Source: Mameliella sp. MMSF_3455 (GTDB lineage: Bacteria > Pseudomonadota > Alphaproteobacteria > Rhodobacterales > Rhodobacteraceae). From it: a stretch of DNA of 64,000 nucleotides. Below the pieces are notes generated by a model. It saw only the letters and a program-made list of their open reading frames with translations. It did no database searches and had not been told where the DNA came from. The position numbers were made by a program, and so were the translations under genes. Shown one piece after another: positions 24,008-62,538 of this stretch (the first letter of the stretch is position 1; the number at the start of each line of letters is the position of its first letter). The stretch covers positions 124,001-188,000 of the forward strand of contig NZ_JASHJL010000006.1 of assembly GCF_030733205.1 (NCBI RefSeq), read 5' to 3'.

Positions 24008-24041
24008 TTGCATTATGCGAACACTTGTTCACATATTCGGA
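24008..24041. promoter_or_regulatory. paired IclR-type sites between FGase-like and GS-like genes
   Basis: Two half-degenerate copies of the GTTCGCATAACGAAC motif lie face to face: TTGCATTATGCGAAC (24008-24022, reads GTTCGCATAATGCAA on the other strand) and GTTCACATATTCGGA (24027-24041). Together they form a 22-bp near-perfect inverted repeat, TATGCGAACA-CT-TGTTCACATA (24014-24035). It could control both divergent operons. Confidence 0.6.
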
Positions 24042-24069
24042 AAAACGACAAGCCGAATTGCGAGACGAC

Positions 24070-25368
24070 ATGCCGACGCCCCTCATCATGGCCTGCACAA
24101 GCGACCTTTCCGGGCAGGTCCGGGGCAAGGGATTTGCACTTGGCGATCTGGACCGACGCATTCGGGGCGGCGTCGGCTGGACTCCGACCAATGCGCAGAT
24201 CACCTGCTTTGACGGCATCGCGCCCTCGCCTTTCGGCTCGCTTGGCGACGTGACCCTCTGGCCCGACGCGGACGCCCTGTTCGAGGCCCCCATTCCCGGC
24301 TCGCCTGCCCTGCGCATGGTGCTTGGCGATATTCGTGAACGGGACGGCACGCCCTGGATGGCCTGCACGCGCGGCCACCTTCGCGCGGCCATCGCCCGGC
24401 TGACCACCGCCGCCAATGCCGAGTTCCGCGTCAGTTTCGAACATGAGTTCACGCTTTCTGGGATCGACGGCGGCGCAGGCTTTTCCCTTGCCGGTTTCCA
24501 GGAGGCCCAACCCTTTGCCGAGGATCTGCTGGAGGCATTGACTACGGCGGGCATGGAGCCCGACAGTTTTCTGCGCGAATACGGCCCCGGCCAGTTCGAG
24601 GTCACATTGGCTCCGAAACCGGCCCTGCGCGCGGCGGATGAGGCCATCGCCCTGCGCGAAATCACCCGCGCCGTGGCGCGCGCGCACGGCCGAACGGCGA
24701 GCTTTGCGCCCCTGCCAGACGCGGAAAACGTCGGCAACGGCGTCCACATCCACCTCAGCCTTTGGGACGGTGACACGCCCGTGACCCATGACCCGGACGG
24801 CCCCGCCGGGCTGTCCCCGCGCGCCGCGCAGGCCGCCGCCGGCATCGTCCGCCACATGCCCGCGATCACCGCCCTGACGGCAAGTTCCGTCGCAAGCTAC
24901 CTCCGCCTGACCCCGCACCGGTGGAGCGCGGCCTACGCCAACCTTGCTGTTCAGGACCGCGAGGCCGGTTTGCGCATCTGCCCGGTCTCCGCCACCGAAC
25001 CAGACCGCATTGCGCGCCAATTTAATTATGAATACCGCGCGGCGGATGCGACGGCCTCGCCCTGGCTGGCGCTGGCCGCCCTGATCCACGCGGCCGCATC
25101 GGGGATCGAACAGGCACTGCCCTGCCCCACCCCGACGACGGGCGACCTGTCCGAATTGAATGACGCCACCCTGCGCGCCAAGGGCATCGCCCCCCTGCCC
25201 CGCGCCCTGCCCGACGCGCTGACGGCGATGCAGGCGGACGCCGCCCTGTCCGACTGGTTCGGCGCGGATTTCCTCGCTCTCTTCGCCGCGCACAAGACGC
25301 ATGAGCACGGGGAGCTGTCCGGACTGGACACGCAGCAAATGCTCAACCGCTACGCAAAAACATATTGA
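24070..25368 (+). CDS. glutamine-synthetase-like ligase (GlnT/gamma-glutamylamide synthetase type)
   Basis: 432 residues from the ATG at 24070. A short beta-grasp-like start (DLSGQVRGKGF) precedes the GS catalytic domain: FEHEFTL, YGPGQFEVTLAPKP, GNGVHIHLSLWDG and the Arg-containing YANLAVQDREAGLRICP. Divergent GS-like proteins of this size often ligate glutamate to amines (gamma-glutamyl-polyamine or -methylamide synthetases) rather than to ammonia. Position beside a polyamine-type transporter and two amide hydrolases supports a gamma-glutamylation route. No strong ribosome site is visible, so a start at 24091 (ATG of MACTSD) cannot be excluded. Confidence 0.82.
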   Translation: MPTPLIMACTSDLSGQVRGKGFALGDLDRRIRGGVGWTPTNAQITCFDGIAPSPFGSLGDVTLWPDADALFEAPIPGSPALRMVLGDIRERDGTPWMACTRGHLRAAIARLTTAANAEFRVSFEHEFTLSGIDGGAGFSLAGFQEAQPFAEDLLEALTTAGMEPDSFLREYGPGQFEVTLAPKPALRAADEAIALREITRAVARAHGRTASFAPLPDAENVGNGVHIHLSLWDGDTPVTHDPDGPAGLSPRAAQAAAGIVRHMPAITALTASSVASYLRLTPHRWSAAYANLAVQDREAGLRICPVSATEPDRIARQFNYEYRAADATASPWLALAALIHAAASGIEQALPCPTPTTGDLSELNDATLRAKGIAPLPRALPDALTAMQADAALSDWFGADFLALFAAHKTHEHGELSGLDTQQMLNRYAKTY

Positions 25369-25402
25369 AGACCGTTTCAGCGGCAGAAAATTTCTTGAAT
25401 TG

Positions 25403-25436
25403 GTTCGCATAGCGCGCAATAGTTCGCCATACGAAC
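25403..25436. promoter_or_regulatory. two IclR-type sites before the polyamine-type transporter operon
   Basis: GTTCGCATAGCGCGC (25403-25417) has one good arm. GTTCGCCATACGAAC (25422-25436) has both arms perfect. The second ends 15 bp before the ATG at 25451. They are 19 bp apart start to start. Confidence 0.65.
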
Positions 25437-25450
25437 AGGGAGACTCGACC

Positions 25451-26629
25451 ATGAAACGCCGACCCACCGTACCCTCATCCCTCCGCAACCCGATGTCCGG
25501 CGCCTTGAGCAGGCGTCAGATGATGGGCGGCATGGCCGCCGGGCTGGCCGCCGCCGGACTGCCGATGAGCGCCCGCGCCCAAGCGGATCAGATCGCCCTG
25601 CTGACATGGGACGCCTATGCCGATCCGCGCCTTCTGGACATGTGGCGCAAGGAAACCGGCAAGGACATCCGCTACGAGATCCACATCTCTGACCCGACTT
25701 CGGTCAACCGTCTGCGCGCGGGTGAAACCAACGTCTGGAACTTCATCAACCTCAACAACCCCTGGGCGCGTCAGGTCCTGTGGCCCGAGGGCCTGATCTA
25801 CGATCTGCCCCGTGACCGGTTTGAGCCGCTATACGCACAGATGTTCGAAAAATTCGCCATGCCCTACGACTGGGCCCTCTCCGAGGACGGCAACAACCTA
25901 CTGGGCGTCGTGCAGCGTTTCGAGACCTTCGATTTCGTCGTCAATTCCGACGTGATCGCGCCCGCCACCGCCAAGGACGAAGGCTGGGACCTGTTCAACA
26001 ACCCCGACTTCGCGGGCCGTTACGGCATCCTCGCCTACGAGGACTGGAACGTGATGGACATCTGCATGGGCGCGGGCATTCACCCCTACAAGCCCAAGAC
26101 AGAGGCAGATTACGCCAAGTTCGAGGAAACCGCGCGGCGCTGGATCAACAACGCCAAGATGATCACCACGGATTTCGTGCAGCTGAACCTGGCCATGCTG
26201 AACGGCGAGATCGACCTCTATTTTACCGGCGGCACCTACACGGCCAGCTCTGCACGGGCCGAGGGCGCGACGAACATCTACGCCATCACGCCCAACTCCG
26301 GCCCCGCCGATGGCAAGGGCGGCATCAACTGGATCGAACTGAACTCCGCCGTAGCCAACCCCACCGGCAAGGAGGCGACCTTCGACTTCCTCGAATGGAT
26401 CACCACCCCGGATGCGGCGGAAATCGTCGCGCGCGGCAACGGCAACCTGCAACCGGTCAGCCAGATGGCCCAGGACGAGGTCCTCAGCCGCTTCTCCGCG
26501 GACGAACTGGACGCGATCCAGTGGGATGAATTTGACGAACGCATCTCCAATGCCGTCGAATTCGACATCATCCCCGATTACGACCGTCTCTATGACATCT
26601 ACTCGGCGGCGATCCGTGATCGCGGCTGA
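25451..26629 (+). CDS. extracellular solute-binding protein, spermidine/putrescine (PotD-like) type
   Basis: 392 residues. The N-terminus looks like a Tat signal: SRRQMMGG followed by a hydrophobic stretch and an ARA-Q cleavage region near residue 45. The mature protein has family 1 binding-protein features (ALLTWDAYADPRLLDMW, RAGETNVWNFINLNN, FLEWITTPDAAEIV). It begins a four-gene transporter operon 83 bp after the GS-like gene and directly behind two 15-bp palindromes. The ligand is likely an amine, amino acid derivative or small carboxylate; polyamine type is family inference. Confidence 0.87.
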   Translation: MKRRPTVPSSLRNPMSGALSRRQMMGGMAAGLAAAGLPMSARAQADQIALLTWDAYADPRLLDMWRKETGKDIRYEIHISDPTSVNRLRAGETNVWNFINLNNPWARQVLWPEGLIYDLPRDRFEPLYAQMFEKFAMPYDWALSEDGNNLLGVVQRFETFDFVVNSDVIAPATAKDEGWDLFNNPDFAGRYGILAYEDWNVMDICMGAGIHPYKPKTEADYAKFEETARRWINNAKMITTDFVQLNLAMLNGEIDLYFTGGTYTASSARAEGATNIYAITPNSGPADGKGGINWIELNSAVANPTGKEATFDFLEWITTPDAAEIVARGNGNLQPVSQMAQDEVLSRFSADELDAIQWDEFDERISNAVEFDIIPDYDRLYDIYSAAIRDRG

Positions 26630-26636
26630 TCCGCAG

Positions 26637-27665
26637 ATGACCGGCACCCCTGCCGATACGCAACCCGCGCTCAGCCTCCAGGGGCTGAGCCGTCGTTTCG
26701 GCGACACCCACGCCCTGCGCGAGGTGTCGCTGGATATTGCCGAGGGCGAGTTTTTCACCATCGTCGGCCCCTCCGGCTCCGGCAAGACGACGCTCCTGCG
26801 CATCCTTGCCGGGCTGGACCAGCCGACCACCGGCACGCTGCTCTTGCGCGGCAAGGACGTGACGGGCCAACCGCCGAACAAACGTCCCACCGCGATGGTG
26901 TTTCAGTCGCTCGCCCTGTTCGATCACCGCAGCGTCGGGCAGAACGTGGAATTCGCGCTGAAGATGCGCGGCATCGACGCCGCCACCCGCAAGGCCCGCG
27001 CGCTGGAACTGCTGGATCTCGTCCGCCTTGGGCCTGACTACTACGGCAAGGCGGTCACCCAATGTTCCGGCGGCGAACGGCAGCGTGTGGCGCTGGCCCG
27101 CGCGCTGGCCTCGGACCCGGAAATCCTGTTCTTCGACGAACCGCTGTCCGCGCTGGATTATCGCCTGCGCAAGACGCTGGAAGTCGAACTGCGCAGCCTG
27201 CAACGCCGCACCGGGCGCACCTTTGTCTACATCACCCACAGCCTCGAAGAGGCGATGGTCATGTCCGACCGCATCGGCATCATGAAGGACGGCCAGCTGG
27301 TGCAGGTGGGCACACCTTCGGACATCTATGACCGCCCGCGCGACCGTTTCGTCGCCCGCTTCATGGGCGAGGTCAACATCCTGCAAATCCGCGATGAGCA
27401 CCTGCCAGAGCTGAACAGCCCCCTGCCCGGCTTTGCCGATGGCCACCTGATCCTGCGGCCGGAGGCCCTGCACACGGACGGCCAGGGCATCGGGATCAAA
27501 GTCACCGTGCAGGAACGCTTTCAGCTTGGCTCTCGTGTGCAGCTGCACCTTGACACCCCCGCCGGCCTGATGATCGCGGAACAGCCCGCCTCCTGCGCAC
27601 TGCAACCGGGGGATGAGGCGCAATTCCACTTTGATCCGGCGCAAGCGCATAGGGTCACGGAATGA
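26637..27665 (+). CDS. ABC transporter ATP-binding protein (PotA-like)
   Basis: 342 residues starting 7 bp after the binding-protein stop. Walker A is GPSGSGKTT (about residues 42-50), the Q-loop VFQSLALFDH, the signature CSGGERQR and Walker B ILFFDEPLSALD. A C-terminal TOBE-like region (residues about 270-342) is typical of the spermidine/putrescine and maltose subclasses. It energises the two permeases that follow and overlaps the first by ATGA. Confidence 0.9.
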   Translation: MTGTPADTQPALSLQGLSRRFGDTHALREVSLDIAEGEFFTIVGPSGSGKTTLLRILAGLDQPTTGTLLLRGKDVTGQPPNKRPTAMVFQSLALFDHRSVGQNVEFALKMRGIDAATRKARALELLDLVRLGPDYYGKAVTQCSGGERQRVALARALASDPEILFFDEPLSALDYRLRKTLEVELRSLQRRTGRTFVYITHSLEEAMVMSDRIGIMKDGQLVQVGTPSDIYDRPRDRFVARFMGEVNILQIRDEHLPELNSPLPGFADGHLILRPEALHTDGQGIGIKVTVQERFQLGSRVQLHLDTPAGLMIAEQPASCALQPGDEAQFHFDPAQAHRVTE

Positions 27666-28498
27666 AACCCGGTCCGCTCTTTGCCCTACCCGTCGCGCTG
27701 TTCCTGCTGGTCGGCTTTGCCGCGCCCATCGTCATCGTCGGCTGGTATTCCCTGATCGAGCCGCGCAGCTTTGATCTGACCTCGGACCTGACGCTGGCCA
27801 ACTACCGCGCCGCCTTTACCGAGGGCTATGGCGGCCCGTTCTACTGGTCGATCTTCGGCGCATTGCTGACCACGCTGACCTGCGCTCTGATCGCCTGGCC
27901 CACGGCCAAGATGCTGCACGCCCGCGCCGGGCGCGGCGCGGCCATCATCACCGGCCTGATCGCCGTGCCGATCTTTGTCAGCGAAAGCGTGCGCCTGTTC
28001 GGCCTGTCGCTGTTCATGATGCCCGGCGGCGGTATCCTTGCCGGATCGCTCAAGGCGCTGTTCGGGGTTTCCATCGGCACGGTGCTGAACACCAAGATCG
28101 CGGTCTACCTTGGCCTCGTCTACGTGCACTTTCCCTTCATGCTGTTTCCCCTGCTGCTGGGGGTCGCGCTGATCCCGCGCGACCGTATCGACGCAGCCCG
28201 CGACCTGGGCGCCTCGCGCTGGCAGGTGTTGCGTGAGGTTGAATTGCCACTGGCCCTGCCCGGCCTCGCCATCGGCGCGCTGTTGACTTTTGTTCTCTGC
28301 ATCGGCGCCAATGCAGAGGCGGCGATCCTTGGCGGGCAGGCAGTCACCGTCGTCACCCGCGCCATCGAACAGCGCTTTTCCTACGCGCAGGACTGGCCCA
28401 TGGGGGCGGCGCTGACCATGCTGGTGACGCTGGTCACGGCCATCGTCGTCTTTCCCGTGCTCGCACGCATCGACCTCAACCGACTGATCCGCCGATGA
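27662..28498 (+). CDS. ABC transporter permease (PotB-like)
   Basis: 278 residues, six predicted membrane helices, with the cytoplasmic EAA-loop DAARDLGASRWQVLREVELPLALPG that docks on the ATPase. 4-bp overlaps at both ends join it tightly to the ATPase and to the second permease. It forms the inner-membrane channel with the product at 28495. Confidence 0.9.
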   Translation: MKPGPLFALPVALFLLVGFAAPIVIVGWYSLIEPRSFDLTSDLTLANYRAAFTEGYGGPFYWSIFGALLTTLTCALIAWPTAKMLHARAGRGAAIITGLIAVPIFVSESVRLFGLSLFMMPGGGILAGSLKALFGVSIGTVLNTKIAVYLGLVYVHFPFMLFPLLLGVALIPRDRIDAARDLGASRWQVLREVELPLALPGLAIGALLTFVLCIGANAEAAILGGQAVTVVTRAIEQRFSYAQDWPMGAALTMLVTLVTAIVVFPVLARIDLNRLIRR

Positions 28499-29310
28499 GA
28501 AAACCGCTTCAGACCCTCTGGCTGACCGTCATCGTGGTGCTGCTCTACGTGCCGATCCTCTCGGTCATCCTCGCCAGTCTGGCCAACACGCGCTACATGC
28601 GCTTTCCACACCGGAACTGGTCCATCGGCGCCTACACGGACGCATTCTCGCAGCACGAAACACTGGTCCTGCACCTTGCCTCGCTCAAGGTGGCCGCGCT
28701 GGTCACGGTCTTCGCGTTGGTCCTCGCCACGCTGGGGGCGATGGCCTTTGCCCGCTACGACTGGCGCGGGCGGTCGATCTATCAAAAGGCCATCGTGCTG
28801 CCGATCTTCTTTCCGCAGCCGGTTCTTGGACTCGCCTTATTGCTGTTCTTTTCCGCGCTCGGCATCACGCCCAGCTGGAAAACCGCCGTTTTCGCGCATC
28901 TTGTCTGGATCCTGCCGATCGTGACGCTGGTCATCTCGATCCGCCTCTTCGGCTATGACCCGGCGCAAGAGGACGCCGCCCGCGACTTGGGCGCGACCCG
29001 CTGGCAGGTGCTGAAAGAGGTCACGCTGCCCCACCTCGCCCCCGGCCTGATCTCGGGCGGGCTGTTCGCCTTCCTGCTGTCCTGGTCCAACTTGCCCCTG
29101 TCGATCTTCACCACCGGCGCGGACACCACCCTGCCGGAATGGCTGTTCAGCCGGGTCGCGACGAACTACGCGCCGGTGGTCTCGGCGATTGCCGTCATCG
29201 GCACGCTGGCCTCTGTCGCCTTTGGCGTGGTGGTGCTGGCGGCGCTGTGGATACAGCGCCGCGCTTCGCGTCAGTCCAGTTCCGCCTCGGCCTCAATCTC
29301 GACCTCGTAA
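28495..29310 (+). CDS. ABC transporter permease (PotC-like)
   Basis: 271 residues with six membrane segments and the EAA loop EDAARDLGATRWQVLKEVTLPHLAPG. It is the final gene of the polyamine-type transporter operon. Its last 40 bp overlap, in antiparallel orientation, the 3' end of the aldo/keto reductase-RidA gene. Its serine-rich last residues are therefore read from DNA that also encodes the end of the other protein. Confidence 0.9.
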   Translation: MRKPLQTLWLTVIVVLLYVPILSVILASLANTRYMRFPHRNWSIGAYTDAFSQHETLVLHLASLKVAALVTVFALVLATLGAMAFARYDWRGRSIYQKAIVLPIFFPQPVLGLALLLFFSALGITPSWKTAVFAHLVWILPIVTLVISIRLFGYDPAQEDAARDLGATRWQVLKEVTLPHLAPGLISGGLFAFLLSWSNLPLSIFTTGADTTLPEWLFSRVATNYAPVVSAIAVIGTLASVAFGVVVLAALWIQRRASRQSSSASASISTS

Positions 29311-30725
29311 CCACCGATCAACTCCTTGACGACGATCAGCGTATTGGCCGGGCGGATCTCTCCGAAATAGCGCGCGTGCACTTCGGAGACCGCCTGCCAG
29401 TCCGCCTCGTTGGTCAGGAAGATCCGCGTCCGCAACACGTCTTCCAGCGTGCCGCCAAGTGACGACACCGCCCCGGCGATCTTGTCGAGAATATAGACCG
29501 CCTGCCCCGCTGCGTCGCCCTTGCAGACGGCACCGCCATGCGGATCGGTGGCCGTGGTGCCGCTGACAAGGATGCGCTTGCCCTTGCGCACCGCGCGGGC
29601 GAACCCGGCCTTTTCCTCCCAGATCGACCCGCTCTCGGCCCGCTGCCGCCCCGGTCGCGGTTCCGACACCACCATCACCGGCGGCAAAGCGTCCAGGTGG
29701 TGCGACAGGTCGCCGGACGCGGTCAGGAAGGGCGGCTTGCGGTATTCATCGCCGCAATCGCCGGGAATAGGCTGCATCGCCGCCTCGGCAATCGCCGCCT
29801 TGTCCGCATCATCCAAGGCAAAGCCCAGCATCCGCCGGTTGTCGTCGCGATGCGCGTTCTCTCCCAGCCGGACGCCAACGATCACCCCCGCCGTCGCGCC
29901 CTGCTCCAGCACCCAGCGGCTGGCCACGTTGGACACCGACACCCCGTGCCGTTCTGCGATCAGGGCCAGCGCGCCCAGCAGATGTTGAAAGCGATCCCAG
30001 CCGCCCGCCGTTTCGACAAAGCGCATGTATTTCATGCGGCTCCAGTCTTCGATCTGTGCCGGTTTTTCTACACCCAGCCATTTCTGCGACAGGAACCCGC
30101 CGCAGAGCGTGCCAAAGCCAAGGATGCCAACCCCATGTTCGGCCGCCACGCGGGTCAACTCTCCGGCCGCGCGCCGATCCACGACGGAGAAACAGACCTG
30201 GTTGGTGGCGATCTCGATCCCCTGTTTCAGCACCATGCGCAGATGCGCCGCGTCAAAATTGGTCAGGCCGATATGCCCCACCAACCCCTCTTCGCGCAGC
30301 TTCATCAGCTCGGACAGCGCGTCCAGGTATTCCGGCGACTGGTACTGCCACCAGTGAAACTGCATCACGTCCACGCGGTCCATCGCCAACCGTTCCAGCG
30401 CGGTTTCCACCCCGCGCCGCACCGTGGCCGCGTCCATCTCGCCCGGCTCCGGGCACCACTTGGTCAGGATCGTCGGACGCGGTCCGCCCTCTGCCGCAAG
30501 GATCTGCGCCGCCTTGCCCGCCACGATTTCGGCGCTGCCGTAATGGTCCGCCATGTCGAAGGTGGTGAACCCCTCGCGCGCGTAATCGGCCAGCGCCTCG
30601 GCCGCCGCGTCAAGGTCGAACGCCTTGCCGTCCCGCTCCTGGTCGGCCATCTGCCACAGCCCGGTGACCACGCGCGACAGGGACAGGCCCGAAGGCAGGG
30701 TGATCTGGTCGAGGGATTCTTTCAT
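29271..30725 (-). CDS. aldo/keto reductase fused to a C-terminal RidA-like domain
   Basis: 484 residues from the ATG at 30725, which is preceded by GGAGAG. Residues 1 to about 330 are an aldo/keto reductase with the full catalytic tetrad D57, Y62, K89 and H124 (FDMADHYG, LTKW, MQFHWWQ). Residues about 375-484 are a YjgF/RidA domain (KRILVSGTTATDPHG, LRTRIFLTN, YEVEIEAEAELD). In the RidA part the arginine essential for imine deamination is Asn (RPANTLIV instead of PARS/T). It may therefore bind rather than deaminate its ligand. It is transcribed leftward from a promoter region with IclR-type sites. Confidence 0.85.
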   Translation of the reverse strand: MKESLDQITLPSGLSLSRVVTGLWQMADQERDGKAFDLDAAAEALADYAREGFTTFDMADHYGSAEIVAGKAAQILAAEGGPRPTILTKWCPEPGEMDAATVRRGVETALERLAMDRVDVMQFHWWQYQSPEYLDALSELMKLREEGLVGHIGLTNFDAAHLRMVLKQGIEIATNQVCFSVVDRRAAGELTRVAAEHGVGILGFGTLCGGFLSQKWLGVEKPAQIEDWSRMKYMRFVETAGGWDRFQHLLGALALIAERHGVSVSNVASRWVLEQGATAGVIVGVRLGENAHRDDNRRMLGFALDDADKAAIAEAAMQPIPGDCGDEYRKPPFLTASGDLSHHLDALPPVMVVSEPRPGRQRAESGSIWEEKAGFARAVRKGKRILVSGTTATDPHGGAVCKGDAAGQAVYILDKIAGAVSSLGGTLEDVLRTRIFLTNEADWQAVSEVHARYFGEIRPANTLIVVKELIGGYEVEIEAEAELD

Positions 30726-30746
30726 CTTGTCGCTCTCCGCACAGGT

Positions 30747-30761
30747 GTTCGTATATTCTTT
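30747..30761. promoter_or_regulatory. IclR-type half site before the AKR-RidA gene
   Basis: GTTCGTATATTCTTT keeps one good arm of the GTTCG-N5-CGAAC palindrome and lies 21 bp before the ATG at 30725. Confidence 0.4.
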
Positions 30762-30957
30762 GGGCAGCATCCCGCGCCTGATCGCCAGACACAAGCGCGC
30801 GCAGCCCCTGAAAACCACCCGCAAAACGCTGTCAAAACTGACAAAAAAAGGCAAACGCACCTGCGTTTCGCAGTGCCATCCCGAAACCGGCGCAGCCCCG
30901 CCACGAAAAAACCATTGACCGAGCGAAAACCGTTCGTCAAACTATTTTCGGACATTT

Positions 30958-30972
30958 GTGCGCATAACGAAC
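30958..30972. promoter_or_regulatory. IclR-type site before the polar-amino-acid transporter operon
   Basis: GTGCGCATAACGAAC differs from the consensus palindrome at one base and ends 46 bp before the binding-protein ATG at 31019. Confidence 0.65.
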
Positions 30973-31018: not shown

Positions 31019-31825
31019 ATGAAGAACTGGATCATCGCAGGGGTCACCGCCCTTGGGCTGGCGCTGACCGCCGCCCCCGGGGCACAGGCCAAATCGCTTG
31101 AGGAGATCCTCTCCGACGGCACCATCCGCATCGGCATCAACCCCAACTTCCCCAACATGAGCACCCGTGACGACAACGGCGACTGGCAGGGGTTCGACAT
31201 CGAGATCGGCACCATGATCGCCGAGAAACTGGGCGTCGAGGTCGAATGGGTGCCCACCGAAACCGCGCAGCGCGTGCCCTTCCTCGTCTCTGACCGCATC
31301 GACATTTCCATGGGCGCGCTGACCCGCAATTCCGAACGCGCCAAGCTGATCGACTACACGGCCCCCCTGCACACCGAAGTGCTGGCCGTTCTGGCCACCG
31401 ACAAGATCGAGGGCGACGGCTGGCAGGACTTCAACAAGGACGGCGTCGTTCTGGCGAACATGCGCGGCAACTGGACCGTGGGCTGGATCGAGGAAAACAT
31501 GCCCGAGGTCGAGCTGGAGCTGGTCGACAGCATCGCTGACACCGTGCGCCTTGTGGCGCAGGGCCGCGCCGATGCCATCGTCGAGAACATCGACTTCTTC
31601 ATGGGCTTCACCGGCAACCACGAAGGCGTCAACTGGCGCGTCGTGCCGGAACCGATCTTTGTTGCCTACTGCGCGCTTGGCGTCAGCCAGGGCAACGACA
31701 ACCTGACCGAGGTGCTGAACATCATCCTCTATGACCTGCATTCGTCCGGCACCGTCAAGGAGGTCTGGGAAGCGAACTATGGCGCGCCGATGCTGCGCGA
31801 GGTGCCCGTCACCCCCTGGTTCTGA
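31019..31825 (+). CDS. periplasmic binding protein of polar amino acid ABC transporter (GlnH/ArtJ type)
   Basis: 268 residues with a Sec signal peptide (MKNWIIAGVTALGLALTAAPGAQA, cleavage about residue 24). It carries the family 3 binding-protein signature (IRIGINPNFPNMSTRDDNGDWQGFDIEIG, MGALTRNSERAKLIDY). The usual Arg contacting the ligand alpha-carboxylate is near SERAK. It starts a six-gene rightward operon. The ligand is probably an amino acid or related zwitterion. Confidence 0.9.
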   Translation: MKNWIIAGVTALGLALTAAPGAQAKSLEEILSDGTIRIGINPNFPNMSTRDDNGDWQGFDIEIGTMIAEKLGVEVEWVPTETAQRVPFLVSDRIDISMGALTRNSERAKLIDYTAPLHTEVLAVLATDKIEGDGWQDFNKDGVVLANMRGNWTVGWIEENMPEVELELVDSIADTVRLVAQGRADAIVENIDFFMGFTGNHEGVNWRVVPEPIFVAYCALGVSQGNDNLTEVLNIILYDLHSSGTVKEVWEANYGAPMLREVPVTPWF

Positions 31826-31834
31826 ATCCTGACC

Positions 31835-31857
31835 GGGGCGCGGCCCGCCCGCGCCCC
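31835..31857 (+). terminator. intercistronic GC hairpin after the binding-protein gene
   Basis: A perfect 8-bp stem GGGGCGCG/CGCGCCCC with 7-nt loop lies 10 bp past the stop and before the permease gene, with no T-run. It probably protects or attenuates mRNA so that binding protein is made in excess. Confidence 0.5.
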
Positions 31858-31890
31858 CTCCCCCATACGAAAGCCCGGCCATAAACCCGC

Positions 31891-39478: not shown

Positions 39479-39544
39479 GGAATGGGCAGGTTCGGACAGA
39501 TTTCCCGACAAAACCGCGCTCTCCCTCTGTTTAGATGCCAGAAT

Positions 39545-39559
39545 GTACGCATTACGAAC
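39545..39559. promoter_or_regulatory. IclR-type site in the divergent Opp promoter region
   Basis: GTACGCATTACGAAC has one perfect arm and one mismatch in the other. It lies between the divergent permease operon (start 39478) and binding-protein gene (39691), in an otherwise AT-rich gap. Confidence 0.6.
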
Positions 39560-39690
39560 AAAAGTTCTTTTAATGTAAAGATCAATCTGCTTACAGTAAA
39601 AATATTTTACGAGCACCGGACAAACCGGCGCCCGTGAAAACAGCAGCCGCATCAAAAGCGCGGCCCATTCGTTCAACAGGAGGTCACCTC

Positions 39691-46265: not shown

Positions 46266-46287
46266 CAACGAAGAACAGGAGAGGACG

Positions 46288-51096: not shown

Positions 51097-51159
51097 GGGT
51101 GTTCCTTCCTTGGTCTTTTTTGTCTTGTGGCGCGAGTTTCGCGCCGGGATCAATGCGGT

Positions 51160-52077: not shown

Positions 52078-52098
52078 TGGAACAATCCTCGAAAAATA

Positions 52099-53496: not shown

Positions 53497-53521
53497 GCCC
53501 GGCCTCCTTTCCTGTTCTTGT

Positions 53522-54631: not shown

Positions 54632-54648
54632 TTCAGGCTCCTTTTTCT

Positions 54649-55476: not shown

Positions 55477-56390
55477 GCGTTTTTCTCCTTCGTCTGGCGG
55501 ATGTAGAGCACCATGAAGACCAGCATCACCAGCATCATGCCCACCGAATAGGCCGCTGCTTGGCCCATCTGGTTCAGGCCGAACGCCTCCTGGTAGACCA
55601 GCAGCGACAGGGTCTGGGTCGAGGTCACGGGACCGCCGCCCGTCAGCAGGTACAGCAGGTCGAATTCCTTGAAGTCCCAGATCGCGCGCAAGAGGATGAT
55701 GACCGTCAGGACGGAGCGTAGCTGCGGCAGGGTCACGTCAAAGAAGCGCGCGATGGGGCCGGCGCCGTCGATGCGGGCGGCCTCGTAGAGGTTTTCCGGG
55801 ATCGTTTGCAGCCGCGCCAGCACGGCGATCACGACGAAGGGAAAGAACTTCCACGCGCCCACGAGGATCACGCCGATCATGGCATTGGGCATCGAGCCCA
55901 GCCAGTCCAGCGGCATGTCGATGATGCCCAGCTGCATCAACCCTTGGTTCAGGGCGCCGTAGAGGTCGTTGAACAGCCATTTCCAGACCAGCACCGCAAC
56001 CACGGTGGAGAGGAAATAGGGAAACAGGACAAGGCTGCGCGCCAGCGAACGGAACCAGATGTTCTGGTGCAAGAGCAGCGCAAGGCCGACTCCGGCGACG
56101 ATCTGCAGGGTCAGCGTGCCGACCGTCCAGATCAGCGTGACCTTGAGCGAGTTCCAGAAGGCCTTGCCCGTCAGCAGCTCTATGTAGTTGTCCGCACCGA
56201 CAAAGCCGCCCTGAAGCGTGGGCGTGTAGATCGAGAAGACCGACAGGTAGATCGCCGCCAAGAGCGGATAGACGATCACCAGGCTGAAGACGAGGATGGT
56301 GGGCGCGATCAGCAGCACACCGAGCCGCGCATAGGCACGTTCGAGCGGCGGTGTCGCGCTTTTGGGGATGTTGGTTGCGATGGCTGTCAT
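55473..56390 (-). CDS. ABC transporter permease (MalF/CUT1 type)
   Basis: 305 residues from the ATG at 56390, with AGGA just upstream. It has six membrane segments (LLIAPTILVFSLVIVYPLLAAIYLS and onward). The coupling loop is NLYEAARIDGAGPIARFFDVTLPQL. It forms the heterodimeric pore with the product at 54649. Confidence 0.9.
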   Translation of the reverse strand: MTAIATNIPKSATPPLERAYARLGVLLIAPTILVFSLVIVYPLLAAIYLSVFSIYTPTLQGGFVGADNYIELLTGKAFWNSLKVTLIWTVGTLTLQIVAGVGLALLLHQNIWFRSLARSLVLFPYFLSTVVAVLVWKWLFNDLYGALNQGLMQLGIIDMPLDWLGSMPNAMIGVILVGAWKFFPFVVIAVLARLQTIPENLYEAARIDGAGPIARFFDVTLPQLRSVLTVIILLRAIWDFKEFDLLYLLTGGGPVTSTQTLSLLVYQEAFGLNQMGQAAAYSVGMMLVMLVFMVLYIRQTKEKNA

Positions 56391-56465
56391 GAAGCGTCCT
56401 GGCAAAATCGCCCGGCGGCACAGGGTGAAAGCCGCCGGGCCGGAGTATGGCGAGTTGGGGAGGGA

Positions 56466-57803
56466 TCAGCCCGCCATGATCTCTTCGATGCGCTTGGCGG
56501 TTTCGCCAAGAACCGTATCGACGTTTTCATCGTTCAGCACGACGCGCTGCACCATCTCGGCGATGACGCCGGAGTTGACGATTTCACCGGCCTTGACGTT
56601 GGGCTTGTGCGCGGTGCTTTCCCAGCCAAGGTTGAAGCCGTTGGCCGCGGCGGCCGCCATCTTGTCGACCTCTGCCGAGTATTTCTCGATGATCGGGTTG
56701 TTCTGGTATTCGGGCATCTCGGCGATGGTCGAGAGCACCGGAAGAACGTGGCCCGGAGCCGCGTGCAACTGCTGAATGTAGCCTTCGGGATCATACAGGA
56801 AGGCGGCGAACTGCTTGGTCGCCTCCATGTTGCCCGCCGCCTTGGGGATGAAGACCGAGGGGAAGTCGTTGAAGGTCCAGGGCGCGATATCGGCGGATTT
56901 TGTCGGGTAGGTGTCGCAGGTGACGTGATCCGCGATGCCCGGGTTCTGGTTGTTGACGTTGATCAGGACGCGCCCGGTGTAGATGCCGGTGGCGCAGGCC
57001 CCCGAGACGAAGGCCGTCAGGCTGTCACCCCAGCTGTAGTTGGTGGCACCCGGCGGGCAGTACTGGCGCATCGCCTTGTAGAATTCCAGCGCGTCGCGGG
57101 TTTCCTGGCTGTCGATGGCGACCTCCAGGTCGGGGCTGAAGACCATGCCGCCGGCCTGATGGATCACGCCGATGAAGATCAGCGTCGTCATCGAGTTGCG
57201 GCCATAGGGCAGGGGGGCGCCGTAGATTCCGCCGCCCTGCATGGCCGCACAGGCGGACAGAAGTTCGTCCCACGTACGCGGGTTCTTGTCGATGCCGGCC
57301 CTTTCCATCAGGTCCTTGCGCAGCCAGATCACGTTGGCGGCAGAGTTGCCGATCGAGGTGCCGGCATATTGGCCCTTGTCGATCTCGTAGATGCGGTTCA
57401 CACCGTCATAGAATTTTTCCGGCCCGATCATTTCGATCACGTCGTTGAACGGCTCCAAAAGGCCGTTGCGCCAGTAGTTGGAGACCGCGAAGCTGGGCAG
57501 GTGCGTGACGATGTTGGGGACGTCGCCGCTTGCAAAAGCGGCAGCAAGTTGAGGGGCATAGCCTTCGTCCGAGGTTTTCTCGAACACGACTTTGACATTC
57601 TGGTGCAGCGCTTCGAAATTCGCGATCTGCGTCTTGTAGGCGGCAAGCTGTTCCGGCGAGGATTGCGGGGACCACCAGCGCAGGGTGATCTGCTCTTGCG
57701 CCTGGATGCGGCGCGGCATCAGAGCGGCAGCGCCAGCCGCGGCCATCCCGGTCAGAACTGTGCGACGCGGCAGGCCCGCGTTCATCCGTTTGTTGGTGGT
57801 CAT
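56466..57803 (-). CDS. extracellular solute-binding protein (family 1, CUT1 type)
   Basis: 445 residues from the ATG at 57803 (GTGGAG upstream). A Tat-type signal is visible: PRRTVLTGMAAAGAAALMPRRIQAQ, with cleavage near residue 30. The mature protein has the family 1 pattern (LRWWSPQSSPEQLAAYKTQIANFEALHQNVKV, TWDELLSACAAMQGGG, FSPDLEVAIDSQETRDALEFYK). It is the first gene of the eight-gene operon that runs to 49604, directly behind the best 15-bp IclR-type palindrome of the window. Confidence 0.9.
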   Translation of the reverse strand: MTTNKRMNAGLPRRTVLTGMAAAGAAALMPRRIQAQEQITLRWWSPQSSPEQLAAYKTQIANFEALHQNVKVVFEKTSDEGYAPQLAAAFASGDVPNIVTHLPSFAVSNYWRNGLLEPFNDVIEMIGPEKFYDGVNRIYEIDKGQYAGTSIGNSAANVIWLRKDLMERAGIDKNPRTWDELLSACAAMQGGGIYGAPLPYGRNSMTTLIFIGVIHQAGGMVFSPDLEVAIDSQETRDALEFYKAMRQYCPPGATNYSWGDSLTAFVSGACATGIYTGRVLINVNNQNPGIADHVTCDTYPTKSADIAPWTFNDFPSVFIPKAAGNMEATKQFAAFLYDPEGYIQQLHAAPGHVLPVLSTIAEMPEYQNNPIIEKYSAEVDKMAAAAANGFNLGWESTAHKPNVKAGEIVNSGVIAEMVQRVVLNDENVDTVLGETAKRIEEIMAG

Positions 57804-57825
57804 TTGACACTCCACTGTTGGCAAT

Positions 57826-57859
57826 GTTCGCATATCGAACATATGTTCGTATCATTGCC
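57826..57859. promoter_or_regulatory. IclR-type operator before the eight-gene operon (best copy)
   Basis: GTTCGCATATCGAAC (57826-57840) has both 5-bp arms perfect. It is followed by a partial copy GTTCGTATCATTGCC (57845-57859). It lies 22 bp before the binding-protein ATG on the minus strand. Confidence 0.7.
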
Positions 57860-57940
57860 GCTGCGAAACTCGAATCGCAAGTGTTTTTTGACTCGGCCCC
57901 CCGGTTCAAGGTGGGTTTCGCTTCGAGTTTTGCGGTGATA

Positions 57941-57955
57941 GTTCGTATTGCGCAC
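57941..57955. promoter_or_regulatory. IclR-type site before the IclR gene (autoregulation)
   Basis: GTTCGTATTGCGCAC has one perfect arm and one mismatch in the other. It ends 17 bp before the regulator ATG, so the regulator may block its own transcription. Confidence 0.6.
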
Positions 57956-57972
57956 AATAAGTGAGACGTCAG

Positions 57973-58824
57973 ATGGCGAAGCCCGTAAAGACCAAACCCG
58001 TTCAGGCCAAAAGCGAAACCCGGCTTGGCACCGTGACTCCTGACGGAGGAGAAGAGCAGGAAAAGCTGTCCAGCCGCGATTTTGTCAGCTCGCTGTCGCG
58101 CGGGTTGGAAATCCTGTCCAGTTTCAGCCGCACATCGCGCAAGATGACCCTGTCAGAGGTGGCCGCCGAAACCGGAATGAGCCGGGCGACGGCGCGAAGG
58201 TTCCTGCTGACGCTGGTCAAGGAGGGCTATGTCATCACCGATGGCAAGCTGTTCGACCTGACGCCCAAGGTGCTGGACCTCGGCTTTTCCGTGCTGTCCA
58301 AGATCGGTATCTGGGACCGCGCCCGTCCTTTCATGGAGCGGCTGTCGGAACAGACCGGCGAAAGCTGCACGGCGGCGATCCTCGACGGGCTGGACGTGGT
58401 CTATGTGGCCGGTGTGCAGGCGCATAACATCATCAGCGTCGGCATCACCGTGGGCAGCCGCCAGTCGGCCTTCTACACCGCGAACGGGCGGGTCCTGCTG
58501 GCCGCGCAGCCGGAGGAAAACTGGGACGGGATCATCGCCAATGCGCGTCTTGTCCCCCGCACGCGACACAGCGTGACCAACAAGACCGAGCTGCGCAACA
58601 TCCTTGAACAGGTGCGCAAGCAGGGCTGGGCGCTGGTCGATCAGGAACTGGAAGAGGGGCTGCTGTCCATCGCCATTCCACTGAAATACCGGTCCGGTAT
58701 CCTCGCCGGGTCGATCAACATCGCCGTGCCGTCGATCCGGGCCACGCCCGAGACGATGATCGAAACCTACCTGCCCAAGCTTCAGGCCACGGCGGACGAC
58801 ATCCAGCAGTCACTGGCGCATTAA
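57973..58824 (+). CDS. IclR-family transcriptional regulator, PcaR/PobR type
   Basis: 283 residues from the ATG at 57973; a GTG at 57961 is also possible. The winged HTH (about 37-97) contains FVSSLSRGLEILSSFS and MTLSEVAAETGMSRATARRFLLTLVKEGYV. The effector domain has VVYVAGVQAHNIISVGITVGSRQSAFYTANGRVLLA and GWALVDQELEEGLLSIAIPL, the layout of PcaR/PcaU/PobR regulators. It is the strongest candidate for the protein that binds the GTTCGCATAACGAAC motif. One copy lies in its own promoter and others precede most operons from 24 to 62.5 kb. Confidence 0.9.
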   Translation: MAKPVKTKPVQAKSETRLGTVTPDGGEEQEKLSSRDFVSSLSRGLEILSSFSRTSRKMTLSEVAAETGMSRATARRFLLTLVKEGYVITDGKLFDLTPKVLDLGFSVLSKIGIWDRARPFMERLSEQTGESCTAAILDGLDVVYVAGVQAHNIISVGITVGSRQSAFYTANGRVLLAAQPEENWDGIIANARLVPRTRHSVTNKTELRNILEQVRKQGWALVDQELEEGLLSIAIPLKYRSGILAGSINIAVPSIRATPETMIETYLPKLQATADDIQQSLAH

Positions 58825-59939
58825 GCGCGCCAACGCGCCGGGGCATAAGGCGCGGGGTCGATCGGCGGCTCAAGCCCCATCGCCAGCGCCGCGGCGGTCC
58901 GGCCTGTCACCGGCCCCAGCGTATAGCCCGCGTCCCCCGGCAGGGCGAGGAACACGCGGTTTTGCGGATGGGCGGGGCCGATGGTGGCCTTGCCATCGAC
59001 CGGCGTGTTGTAGCCCGCCCAGGTGCGCAGCACGCGCAGCCCGCCGATGCCCGGCGCAATCTGCGCCGCCAGCGCGACATTGCCCAAGAGGCTGGTCTTG
59101 CGGATGGTGGGCGCGTGGCGCGCGTCGCTGGCAAGGTTCGCGTCCCAGCCGCCGCCGATCACCACTTGCCCGGATCGAAACTGTTTGAGCGTGATCGGTC
59201 GTTCGGCGTGCTGGACAAGATGGTGGATTTGGTACTCCCCGGCCTCGGTGATGTTCATGTGCAGTGGTTCGGGCGGGGTGCGCAGCGACAGGCCCAGAGG
59301 GGCGGTCAGCGCCTCGGCCCCCCATGCGGCAGCGATCAGGATGGTATCGGCGCGGTAGTCGGTGGCGCCGTGGGCGACGGGGCGGGGGCCGTCCTCTACC
59401 CTGGTGATGCGGTCGTGGACGTGGCGCACGCCAAGCGCGTCCAGCGTGGCGCGCATCTTGCGATTGGCAACCAGCGGGTTCAGCTTGCCTTCGTTGCGGC
59501 AGAGCTCTGCCCCGACGATCCGGGAGGACAGCCAGGGCGCAATGGCGTGCAGTGGGTCGCGGTTCAGGATCTCGACGTCCAGCCCCTTGCGCCGCTCGCG
59601 CTCGGCCTTTTCGTGCAGAAAGGCCAGTTGCGCGTCATTCTCGGCCAGCATCAACCCGCCCTCGCGGGTCAGTTCGACCCCGCCAAGCCGGGCGTCCAGC
59701 GCCTCCCACTCTGTCACGGCAGACAGGTACAGCGGCAGCGAGCTTTCGAGGTTTTCGGCCAGATGCGGGTTCAGCCGCAGAAAGCGGCTTTGCATCTGGA
59801 CGTGCAGGCTGCCTGCGTTGGCATGGGAGCCGGCGTTGCGCTGCGAGTCGACGATGGTCACACGCGCGCCGGCCTCGGCGGCGGTCAGGGCGGCCACCTG
59901 CCCGGTGATGCCGCCACCGATGATCAGCAGATCCGTCAT
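58821..59939 (-). CDS. FAD-dependent amine/amino acid oxidoreductase (HcnC/OoxB/DadA-like)
   Basis: 372 residues. The N-terminal dinucleotide-binding motif LLIIGGGITGQVAALTAAEAG is followed by DAO-fold segments (HANAGSLHVQMQSRF, VVIGGGWDANL, RTWAGYNTPVDGKATIG). It resembles the smaller subunits of opine oxidase, hydrogen cyanide synthase and related dehydrogenases that oxidise a C-N bond. It overlaps its partner at 59936 by ATGA. Its stop codon shares the TTAA at 58821-58824 with the convergent IclR gene. Confidence 0.87.
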   Translation of the reverse strand: MTDLLIIGGGITGQVAALTAAEAGARVTIVDSQRNAGSHANAGSLHVQMQSRFLRLNPHLAENLESSLPLYLSAVTEWEALDARLGGVELTREGGLMLAENDAQLAFLHEKAERERRKGLDVEILNRDPLHAIAPWLSSRIVGAELCRNEGKLNPLVANRKMRATLDALGVRHVHDRITRVEDGPRPVAHGATDYRADTILIAAAWGAEALTAPLGLSLRTPPEPLHMNITEAGEYQIHHLVQHAERPITLKQFRSGQVVIGGGWDANLASDARHAPTIRKTSLLGNVALAAQIAPGIGGLRVLRTWAGYNTPVDGKATIGPAHPQNRVFLALPGDAGYTLGPVTGRTAAALAMGLEPPIDPAPYAPARWRA

Positions 59940-61573
59940 TCCTCGGGGTCCAGCAGCGCTTCGGCGGCGGTGATGGCGGCAATGTCCACGGGTTTGATCG
60001 GCACACGGGGCGCGAAGTAGGACAGATCCTCCAGCGGGCGGCATTGGCGGCGGGCCATGATCCCGGCGACGGCGGGCGCGCAATAGCGGCCCTGGCAGCG
60101 GCCCATGCCGACGCGGGTGGCACGTTTCAGCGCGCCGATGTCGGTGGGATCATCGGCCAGTGCGGCGTCCAGTTGTGCCTTGGTCACCTCTTCGCAACGG
60201 CAGATGTGGGTGTCCGGCGGGGCATCTTCGGGCAGCGGCAGGTCGGCGGAATAGACCCGCCAGAGCGCGTCCTGAAAGGCGCGATGGCGGGCCAGTTCCT
60301 CCTGATCCTCGGGCAGTGGGGCGCTGCCGGTGGCGGCGCGGCCTGCGATACGGCCTTCGGTCACGGCAGCGGGGGCGCCGCCAAGACCGCAGCAATCGCC
60401 GATGGCATAGACGTTCGGGACGGAGGTTTCGCAGGTTTCCGCACGGGTCACGCGGAGGTGGTCGAAACCCGCGTCGTAGGACATGTCGCAGCCCAAAAGG
60501 CGCAGCACCTCGTTCGAGGGTTGAAAGCCGTAGTTCAGGCAGACCGCATCGGCGGTGACGGTGCGGGTCTGGCCGCCCACGGTATAGGTGACCTCCAGCC
60601 CGTCGTCTGTCTGGCGAATGGCGCGGGGCAGGGCGTCATGGGTCGGGCGCACCTTGTGAGACCGCAGCCGGGCCAGCATCCGCAACCCCTTGACCGCCAG
60701 CGCCCGGTCACGGCGCAGCATGTCGGCCCCGGCCAGCGGACGACGCAGCGGGTGCGGCGCGGCTTCGGCCAGCAGGGCGACATCGACCCCGCCGTCAGCC
60801 AGTTCCAGCGCGACCTGCGTCACAAGGGGGCCGTTGCCGAACAGCGCGACACGCTTGCCCGGAAGCGTCCGGTAGCTGCGCCAGAGCGTTTGCGCCGCGC
60901 CCACGGTCATCACGCCGGGCAGGGTCCAGCCGGGGATCATGGTGGGCCGTTCGTAGGCGCCCGTGGCGACGATGAGTTTCTTCGGCGCGATGGCATAGAC
61001 GGCGTCGGGCGCGGTGGCCATGATCTCTGGCCCGTCGAAAGCGCCCCAGACTTCTGTCTGAGGAAGGATCGTGACGCCCGCATCGCGTGCGGCCTGCACC
61101 AACGCGCGGCCCTCTGCCTGCTGATCGTCCAGCGGATCGCCCTGCGCGGCCTGCTTGTAATACTGCCCGCCGGGCACCTTGCGTTCGTCCAGCAGCACCA
61201 CCTCGGCGCCGGACTCTCGCGCGGCGATGGCGGCGGACAGGCCGCCTGCGCCACCGCCGATCACCAGTACCGTGGGCCTCATGCGGTGCGGGGTCAGGTC
61301 GCGCGGGGCAGGGGGCGTCAGCGAGGGTCGCGCGGTTTGGGTTTCGACCGTCATGCCGTCGCGCGCCGGGGTCATGCAGGCGCGTTGGTTCGGGCGCCCG
61401 TCGACGGTGACAAGGCAGTCCTGGCAGACACCCATGCCGCAAAAGATGCCGCGCTGCGCGCCTTGCTCGGTGTCGCGAAAGGCACGGTGCCCGGCGGCGG
61501 TCAGCGCGGCGGCCAGGGACGAGGTGTCGGGGCAGGTGATTTCCTGGCCGTCAAAGGTGAAGCGAAGCGTCAT
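59936..61573 (-). CDS. [2Fe-2S]/FAD oxidoreductase, fused HcnA-HcnB (OoxA/NoxA-like) subunit
   Basis: 545 residues with three parts. Residues 1-85 are a ferredoxin-like [2Fe-2S] domain (C45, C50, C53, C66). Residues about 97-420 are an FAD/NAD(P)-disulfide-reductase-like domain (VLVIGGGAGGLSAAIAARESG, YAIGDCCGLGG). Residues about 465-520 are a BFD-like [2Fe-2S] domain (ICRCEEVT, GMGRCQGRYCAP). HcnA and HcnB are separate in Pseudomonas cyanide synthase but fused here. With the DadA-like subunit it should form a heteromeric amine or opine dehydrogenase feeding electrons to the respiratory chain. Confidence 0.87.
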   Translation of the reverse strand: MTLRFTFDGQEITCPDTSSLAAALTAAGHRAFRDTEQGAQRGIFCGMGVCQDCLVTVDGRPNQRACMTPARDGMTVETQTARPSLTPPAPRDLTPHRMRPTVLVIGGGAGGLSAAIAARESGAEVVLLDERKVPGGQYYKQAAQGDPLDDQQAEGRALVQAARDAGVTILPQTEVWGAFDGPEIMATAPDAVYAIAPKKLIVATGAYERPTMIPGWTLPGVMTVGAAQTLWRSYRTLPGKRVALFGNGPLVTQVALELADGGVDVALLAEAAPHPLRRPLAGADMLRRDRALAVKGLRMLARLRSHKVRPTHDALPRAIRQTDDGLEVTYTVGGQTRTVTADAVCLNYGFQPSNEVLRLLGCDMSYDAGFDHLRVTRAETCETSVPNVYAIGDCCGLGGAPAAVTEGRIAGRAATGSAPLPEDQEELARHRAFQDALWRVYSADLPLPEDAPPDTHICRCEEVTKAQLDAALADDPTDIGALKRATRVGMGRCQGRYCAPAVAGIMARRQCRPLEDLSYFAPRVPIKPVDIAAITAAEALLDPEE

Positions 61574-62505
61574 TTGCCGGCACTTTCAAGGATTTCACGG
61601 CGGGCGTCCAGCAGACGCGCCAGCGCCTGTTCGCGCCATGCGCGGCGGGCGGGCAGGGCCTCCTCTGGCAGGGCCGCGCGCCGTTCGGCCTCGACCCGGT
61701 CGACCAGTTCTGGCGGCCAATCGGGCGCATGTTCGCCACGGTCGCGGCCGATGGCGGCATAGGCGGGGCCAAGCCGTTCGGCATGGCCGCGAATGCCGCC
61801 TGCGGTGTTCAGATCGGCGGTCTCGAACGGACCCGACAGCGCCCAGCGGGGGCCCAGTCCGTCGCGCACCAGCGCATCCAGCGCGGCAACGCCGATCACG
61901 CCTTCGTCGACCAGCCGGTAGGCTTCGCGCAGGAGGGCGCTTTGCAACCGGTTGAAGACAAAGGCGGGGACCTCGTGGCCCAGGCGTGCGGGATCAAAGC
62001 CGCCTTGCCGGAACAGGGCGTCGGCCTGGTCCATCGTGTCGGTCGTTGTGCCGGGCGCGGGCACCAGTTCCAGCACGCGCAGCAGGCTGGGCGGGTTGGC
62101 GGGATGCGCCACGAGACAGCGGGCTTGGTGGGCGGGATCGGGGAGGATTTGCGAAATCATCAGCGCCGAAGAGGCGGTGGCGAGGATCGCGGTGTCGCTG
62201 CGGGCCAGAAGATCCTGGAACAGCGCCTGTTTCAGCTCCAGCCGTTCCGGCCCGGCCTCGATCACCAGCGGGGCGGTGACGTGGTCGGGCAGGGTGGTGA
62301 TGATTTGCGCATTCCCCGCAGGGGTGGGCAGACCGGCCAGGTCCATCGCGGCGCCATGCCGCGCGATCAGGTCGGGCGCATTGCTGCGCGCCTCTTCGGA
62401 GGGGTCACAGAGGGTGACCGCAAAACCCGCGCTGAGAAAGGCGGCGGCAAAGCCGCATCCGATGGGGCCGGCGCCCAGGATGAGGACCGATTGCGCGTCA
62501 TTCAT
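61570..62505 (-). CDS. 3-hydroxyacyl-CoA dehydrogenase family protein (lambda-crystallin/carnitine dehydrogenase-like)
   Basis: 311 residues. The NAD-binding motif GAGPIGCGFA is at 11-20, and a catalytic His lies in LVAHPANPPSLLRVLELVP. The PP and ELVP context resembles L-gulonate 3-dehydrogenase and L-carnitine dehydrogenase more than true fatty-acid enzymes. It would oxidise a 3-hydroxy group on a small acid or betaine. GAGGAG precedes the ATG. It is the first gene of the three-gene leftward operon and overlaps the fused flavoprotein gene by 4 bp. Confidence 0.87.
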   Translation of the reverse strand: MNDAQSVLILGAGPIGCGFAAAFLSAGFAVTLCDPSEEARSNAPDLIARHGAAMDLAGLPTPAGNAQIITTLPDHVTAPLVIEAGPERLELKQALFQDLLARSDTAILATASSALMISQILPDPAHQARCLVAHPANPPSLLRVLELVPAPGTTTDTMDQADALFRQGGFDPARLGHEVPAFVFNRLQSALLREAYRLVDEGVIGVAALDALVRDGLGPRWALSGPFETADLNTAGGIRGHAERLGPAYAAIGRDRGEHAPDWPPELVDRVEAERRAALPEEALPARRAWREQALARLLDARREILESAGK

Positions 62506-62523
62506 GTTGCCCGACTCCTCGTT

Positions 62524-62538
62524 GTTCGTTATGTGAAC
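62524..62538. promoter_or_regulatory. IclR-type site in the divergent promoter of the flavoenzyme operon and SDR gene
   Basis: GTTCGTTATGTGAAC reads GTTCACATAACGAAC on the other strand and differs from the consensus palindrome at one base. It lies between starts at 62505 and 62590 and could control both. Confidence 0.65.

Follow-up and report, generated by a model that had tools for sequence, protein, structure and literature searches.

A 34-bp array of short alternating boxes recurs in front of transporter and enzyme operons in the stretch of Mameliella sp. MMSF_3455 DNA analysed here, a window of 64,000 nucleotides (positions 124001-188000 of C79, a contig of 202,260 bases in a genome of 5.71 Mb and 111 contigs). 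Our analyses indicate that these repeats are very probably the operators of an IclR-family regulator of the PcaR/PcaU/PobR sequence subfamily, encoded at window position 57973 and predicted to bind them. An earlier note on this DNA had described a 15-bp palindrome in twelve copies that defined an IclR regulon around a plasmid replicon. The reading of an IclR regulon is supported by the confinement of the motif to one block of the genome, the subfamily score of the 57973 protein, the arginines of its recognition helix, the operators upstream of its orthologues and the co-occurrence of regulator and motif among relatives.

Architecture of the repeat

The 15-mer GTTCGCATAACGAAC, allowed up to three mismatches, matched the window 10 times (at nine places, one of them on both strands), compared with 1.13 +/- 0.99 matches in 100 shuffles (largest count, 5), indicating that the repeat described in the earlier note is real. 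Nine of its twelve listed positions were recovered (24008, 25403, 25422, 30958, 39545, 45147, 57826, 57941 and 62524), and 24027, 30747 and 57845 had no match within three mismatches. Positions 24027 and 57845 are further boxes at +19 of the operators beginning at 24008 and 57826, 30747 falls inside a weak site beginning at 30728, and three of the listed position pairs are boxes of single operators. The twelve copies thereby reduce to seven strong operators within the window and a few weak sites.

The palindrome is likewise genuine, and the true unit is longer. Aligned sites from C79 and from pSMS3-1, a plasmid of Antarctobacter heliothermus (Roseobacteraceae), yielded a 34-bp array, GTTCG-N5-CGAAC-N4-GTTCG(-N5-CGAAC), of alternating boxes with a period of 19 bp, in which the third box follows the palindrome after 4 bp and the fourth is present in some operators only. 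Tandem double palindromes occur in operators 25403, where they are 19 bp apart, and 68385, and in pSMS3-1 136813, the counterpart of the latter. The shared centre noted earlier proved informative; the GTTCG arms alone (GTTCG-N5-CGAAC, up to two mismatches) were not enriched (33 observed versus 42.3 expected), and the arms-only palindrome was dropped as a descriptor. The signal comes from the centre together with the third box and the regular 19-bp spacing.

Confinement of the array to one block

We scanned C79 with a 34-bp match score matrix trained on 11 pSMS3-1 sites, which were chosen with the earlier 15-mer; one of them (138345) lies within a coding region, and a single operator is represented by two overlapping views. 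Nine strong operators were found, scoring 23.6-39.6 bits, all at positions 24008-69644 in window numbering (two of them, 68385 and 69611, past the window end), whereas the best of five first-order Markov shuffles of C79 reached 15.3 bits. Four other positions exceeded 15.3 bits, all in the block: 25824 (20.8 bits), 69573 (17.1) and second views of 57826 (18.5) and 25403 (17.0). A matrix built from 18 sites gave 10 positions of at least 18 bits in the block and none elsewhere on C79; Markov-2 sequence (4 Mb) contained three positions of at least 15 bits and none of 18.

Genome-wide, the 15-mer at up to three mismatches was no commoner than its reversed control (51 versus 55 matches), and longer models were therefore used. 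At up to two mismatches, six of its seven matches lie in the block; the one outside, C35:10623, was rejected, as it was not among the matches of the 34-bp model. That sequence-only model, built from the 18 sites, returned 18 rows at E up to 10 from the whole genome, several of them one site read on both strands, and all lie at C79:148009-193641 (150 of 393 first-look candidates scored). Equal frequency of the motif outside the block, the outcome that the earlier note had said would count against its proposal, was thus not observed.

The reverse scan, in which a matrix trained on C79 was run over 372 kb of pSMS3-1 (shuffle maximum, 20.4 bits), recovered the orthologous operators. Sites at pSMS3-1 72583 and 79125, scoring 22.0 and 25.6 bits, precede two TRAP-transporter operons (pSMS3-1 72642 and 79087), a difference from the window cluster that suggests that these operons are further regulon members in Antarctobacter.

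The regulator encoded at 57973

The 57973 protein scored above cut-off with both IclR domain models, N-terminal HTH_IclR (PF09339, 60.6 bits) and C-terminal IclR_C (PF01614, 134.1 bits), and narrowly passed TIGR02431, the PcaR/PcaU model (285.8 bits; cut-off, 284.75), in agreement with its earlier designation as PcaR-type. It is the only one of eight TIGR02431 hits in the genome to exceed that cut-off. Its recognition helix, SRATARR, contains an Arg-x3-Arg-Arg set, all three arginines of which are also found in 8eju, a Pca-regulon protein. Suvorova & Gelfand 2021 (PMC8222616) report an important role for Arg56 of PobR in DNA binding and a lack of growth on the inducer when Arg60 or Arg61 is mutated; we infer that the three arginines of the 57973 helix correspond to these residues, matched through Table 5 of that paper and not through an alignment with PobR.

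Another protein could read the operators, either an IclR paralogue or the XRE-cupin regulator encoded at 35306-35875, since the genome encodes at least seven further IclR proteins and the motifs read by different family members resemble one another. We consider this very unlikely. The seven paralogues all score below the subfamily cut-off, and none has the full arginine set (the third Arg is present in 7/7, the first in 4/7 and the second in 0/7); there are no model matches elsewhere in the genome among the candidates scored, and 57973 orthologues carry the operator in every genome in which their upstream DNA can be read. The subfamily score, arginine set, upstream operators and co-occurrence thus make the 57973 protein a well-supported candidate for the predicted binder. 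A second IclR-family gene lies in the window at 14852-15640 (C79:138879-139583; 87 bits to TIGR02431, below cut-off), and no strong 34-bp operator was found near it, only a 13.2-bit position at 13987.

Conservation of the operators and the regulator

Within the plasmid collection, pSMS3-1 is the best match to the window, with two blocks of ~83% DNA identity (window 22.6-41.3 kb with pSMS3-1 82.0-100.8 kb, and 45.1-64 kb with 141.3-160.6 kb) that cover 75-77% of each query. Across ten aligned operator regions, including the weak iclR-proximal site, 291 of 340 operator columns are identical (85.6%), compared with 1344 of 1883 flanking columns (71.4%, coding parts included). In the window the blocks are split by a RepABC replicon at 41.3-44.9 kb (RepC, 376 bits, over cut-off; repA and repB by annotation); on pSMS3-1, no rep gene is present between the separated halves in its (incomplete) gene table. 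The earlier note had placed the regulon around a plasmid replicon; the block itself runs past the window, its halves are apart in Antarctobacter, and no strong site faces repABC (nor the XRE-cupin gene or the GAF-kinase gene).

RepABC parS sites are palindromes, and the repeats surround repABC. They could accordingly be plasmid-maintenance sequences, of the parS or iteron type, or dispersed mobile sequences, which we regard as exceedingly improbable. The sites follow the block genes, not repABC, and precede orthologous block genes in 13 other regulator-holding genomes and on pSMS3-1, where the halves are apart. The arrays also match the three-box IclR design described in PMC8222616.

Orthologues of the 57973 regulator (E up to 1e-60) are present in 15 of 394 family genomes, its own included. 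The operator lies upstream of all 14 for which upstream DNA could be read, again including the Mameliella gene (24.4-40.0 bits); the orthologue in genome G118, with 26 bp of upstream DNA on its contig, was left out. The motif model (E up to 0.01) was positive in 15 of the 394 genomes, 13 of which also hold the regulator (hypergeometric, 1.5e-20, phylogeny ignored). G118 and G162 hold the regulator only, and in G162 the matrix detects a 28.1-bit site upstream of it.

Target genes have operators in other genera too. We surveyed 30 loci (544 kb) from 15 further genomes and found 67 sites scoring at least 18 bits, of which 51 are no more than 350 bp upstream of a block-gene orthologue. Sites precede the IclR gene in 11 genomes (in one, G113, a different IclR), the isomerase gene in 9, the genes for the CUT1 substrate-binding protein, HADH and GcvPA in 6 each, NAD-kinase-like and old yellow enzyme (OYE) genes in 4 each, DAO2, the aldo/keto reductase-RidA fusion (AKR-RidA) and the amino-acid substrate-binding protein in 3 each, and SSADH, Opp1 and Opp2A in 2 each. 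Sites also lie on contigs other than the regulator's in three draft assemblies (G040, G142 and G211). Related clusters on the plasmids pSMS3-1, pRA01 (Roseicitreum) and pAMI4 (Paracoccus aminophilus) contain this regulator, operators and many of the transporter and enzyme genes of the window; they are rearranged and differ in extent from the window cluster.

Predicted mode of control

Each strong operator presents its three or four alternating boxes on a single face of the helix, where two dimers (a tetramer) could bind side by side. In the window, one regulator would control four ABC transporters, a set of amine- and amino acid-type oxidoreductases and its own gene. An operator at the promoter -10 or transcript start would impose repression, to be relieved by a pathway ligand. 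Repression is probably the sign of control, rather than activation, because the operators are close to start codons. In both plasmids they end 6-46 bp from the start codons of the PotD (14 bp for operator 2), CUT1, HADH, short-chain dehydrogenase/reductase (SDR), isomerase, SSADH, DAO2, glutamine synthetase (GS)-like and amino-acid ATP-binding cassette (ABC) genes, and 8 bp from the ATG at 45189 of the NAD-kinase-like gene, as in pSMS3-1. Predicted -35/-10 pairs agree; in TTGAAC-16-TATACT, for example, the -10 falls within the operator on either plasmid. The same protein, acting at the same operators, could be mainly a ligand-dependent activator like PcaU and PobR, which the title of Kok 1998 describes as transcriptional activators, and the operators facing Opp1 (81-112 bp) and, for the main one, iclR (113 bp) are well upstream of the start codons. 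Most of the operators, however, are too near their start codons for a classical upstream activator site, and we consider activation rather unlikely compared with repression.

Several observations weigh against a 57973 regulon controlled by repression. The scans between C79 and pSMS3-1 compare blocks of ~83% identity and so do not give evidence independent of common descent, the clustering of the regulator with its targets means that co-occurrence partly reflects one linked cluster, and the surveyed loci were selected around regulator or motif matches. Sixteen of the 67 surveyed sites have no recognised target (some are at locus ends or mis-called starts, others are unexplained), and the operator-like site at 25824-25857 lies within the PotD coding region and scores 21.9 bits with the 18-site matrix. 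Two motif-positive genomes, G113 and G220, lack a close orthologue of the regulator. G220 is unexplained; in G113, an operator of 40.4 bits lies directly before a different IclR gene, L109:1401-2206 (G113:C28; 167.7 bits, below cut-off), indicating that related IclR proteins read similar sites. Finally, overlap of predicted -10 elements with operators was rejected as proof of repression: 11 of 14 overlap, and 9.2 would be expected from shuffled flanks because the operators are AT-rich.

Relationship to known IclR systems

The 57973 regulator resembles PcaU, PobR and PcaR in matching TIGR02431, in its GTTCG-N5-CGAAC operator with an extra direct half-site and in its recognition-helix arginines. 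PMC8222616 gives the PcaU motif as TTTGTTCGATWATCGMACAMA, with a third box required for PcaU binding, and describes IclR operators of three boxes, tandem palindromes 18-22 nt apart and sites that are mostly centred 20-80 nt upstream of the gene; the present operators share the three alternating boxes, the tandem palindromes and the site positions. The differences are that the regulator is just 1 bit over the TIGR02431 cut-off and that its predicted targets are transporters, oxidoreductases, an aminotransferase, GcvPA/B and a GS-like gene, not protocatechuate or 4-hydroxybenzoate genes. No pca/pob or aromatic ring-cleavage gene was recognised among the targets annotated or tested with hidden Markov models, and no match among the model candidates scored lies elsewhere in the genome; the regulator thus does not group with PcaR, PcaU and PobR by function, that is, by control of pca or pob. 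An operator of 40.0 bits lies just upstream of a PcaR/PcaU-like helix-turn-helix gene inside a betaproteobacterial pca cluster, and from such sequence comparisons subfamily members appear to read DNA in a common way but to have different targets. A TIGR02431 hit that bears the name PcaR/PcaU does not necessarily control aromatic catabolism.

The available text of PMC8222616 does not name the present regulon, which may be listed in the supplementary tables of that paper, and the titles and abstract starts of other literature yielded no description of it. The type of control is known, whereas for the regulon itself we found no description. Our analysis brings ~40 genes of a patchily distributed cluster, each annotated separately and generically, under one predicted regulator and a common control site.

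Target genes and candidate function

The seven strong operators in the window face eleven transcription units over ~38 kb, or twelve if AKR-RidA and its weak site are counted (Table 1). Beyond the window are isomerase/DapA/OYE/GST, DAO2 and SSADH units and possibly Opp2 with a peptidase; the weak site facing the Opp2 group, 71085, scores 10.2 bits, below the shuffle maximum. The predicted targets number 41 genes, or 47 with the Opp2 group, of which 35 are in the window.

Table 1. Predicted operators, regulator and target units in the window (window coordinates; scores from the pSMS3-1 matrix unless stated; operon extents inferred from strand and spacing)
Feature	Position	Strand	Evidence
Operator 1	24008..24041	+	23.6 bits; pSMS3-1 counterpart 99333, 27/34 identical
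Operator 2	25403..25436	-	31.3 bits; 31/34 conserved in pSMS3-1
Weak operator-like site	30728..30761	+	13.2 bits, below shuffle maximum; 16.8 with 18-site matrix
Operator 3, before amino-acid ABC operon	30939..30972	-	36.6 bits; 30/34 conserved
Operator 4	39545..39578	+	36.3 bits; 33/34 conserved
Operator 5, before NAD-kinase-like/GcvPA/GcvPB operon	45147..45180	+	32.8 bits; 26/34 conserved
Operator 6, between CUT1 ABC operon (-) and iclR (+)	57826..57859	+	35.2 bits; 31/34 conserved
Weak second site adjoining iclR start	57922..57955	-	15.3 bits
Operator 7, between HADH-FeS/FAD-DAO operon (-) and SDR (+)	62524..62557	+	38.2 bits; 28/34 conserved
IclR-family regulator, PcaR/PcaU/PobR subfamily, proposed binder	57973..58824	+	TIGR02431, Pfam
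Isochorismatase-family hydrolase and N-formylglutamate-amidohydrolase-family gene	22595..23901	-	profile matches
Glutamine-synthetase-family ligase	24070..25368	+	Gln-synt_C
PotD/PotF-type ABC transporter, 4 genes	25451..29310	+	pSMS3-1 annotation; PotD model weak
Aldo/keto reductase with C-terminal RidA domain, fused	29271..30770	-	profile matches
Amino-acid ABC transporter, deacetylase-like enzyme, GAF protein	31019..35326	+	annotation, profile matches
Opp/Dpp-type transporter 1, divergent	35963..41280	.	annotation, profile matches
NAD-kinase-fold protein, GcvPA, GcvPB	45189..49208	+	profile matches; ATG at 45189
CUT1 ABC transporter, class III aminotransferase, DapA-family enzyme, two SDRs	49604..57803	-	profile matches
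DAO-family oxidoreductase, 2Fe-2S/FAD SoxA-like subunit, lambda-crystallin-like dehydrogenase	58821..62505	-	profile matches
SDR dehydrogenase	62590..63351	+	profile match

Operator 1 lies between the divergent N-formylglutamate amidohydrolase-isochorismatase operon (-) and the GS-like gene (+), and operator 4 between the divergent Opp permease/ATPase operon and the Opp binding protein gene. The weak site at 30728..30761 is located at the AKR-RidA start; this gene probably begins further downstream than called, the called start overlying the site, and the pSMS3-1 counterpart is annotated 11 aa shorter. The 57922 palindrome is also present at pSMS3-1 147293, scored in the opposite direction (18.2 bits, below the shuffle maximum of that scan), and the 25824 site has a weaker counterpart at pSMS3-1 97515 (14.4 bits).

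Enzyme assignments are mostly generic. Among the NCBIfam matches listed, only GcvPA, GcvPB and one aminotransferase subfamily model are enzymes over cut-off. The ligase at 24070 scored 262.7 bits with the gamma-glutamylputrescine synthetase model, below its cut-off of 650, and the best model for the OYE gene, salicylyl-CoA 5-hydroxylase/oxidoreductase, was also below cut-off. The PDB matches of the four metabolic target proteins searched were generic, and the NAD-kinase-like protein had no PDB match. The NAD-kinase-fold, GcvPA and GcvPB genes form a recurrent trio (window 45189-49208; loci L038, L039, L070 and L082), around which no GcvT or GcvH was found in the annotated stretches, and GcvPA has its own operator in six relatives.

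We infer that the targets act together in a single programme for the catabolism of nitrogen-containing compounds. The available parts of the literature on homarine, GcvPA/AcoX clusters, opines and hydroxyproline betaine, mycosporine degradation and Antarctobacter IclR contained no matching pathway. A broader scenario, which we consider unlikely, is that a PcaU-type regulator was recruited from aromatic catabolism, on plasmids and other replicons of Rhodobacterales, to a large multi-transporter programme for degrading a class of nitrogen compound for which no bacterial pathway has been described. The targets include SoxA/DAO-type oxidases, an old yellow enzyme, a TIM-barrel isomerase and polyol-type dehydrogenases, and GcvPA/B occur in the listed clusters without GcvT/H; one might speculate from this set that the substrate is, for example, a glycated amino compound or a natural product derived from N-substituted glycine, such as a mycosporine. 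The co-regulated set of transporters, oxidases, GcvPA/B and aminotransferase is a concrete starting point toward that substrate.

The Opp1 intergenic region also contains an AT-rich inverted repeat, GTAAAAATATTTTAC, at window 39596-39610, which has perfect 6-bp arms, is identical on pSMS3-1 and is possibly the site of a second regulator.

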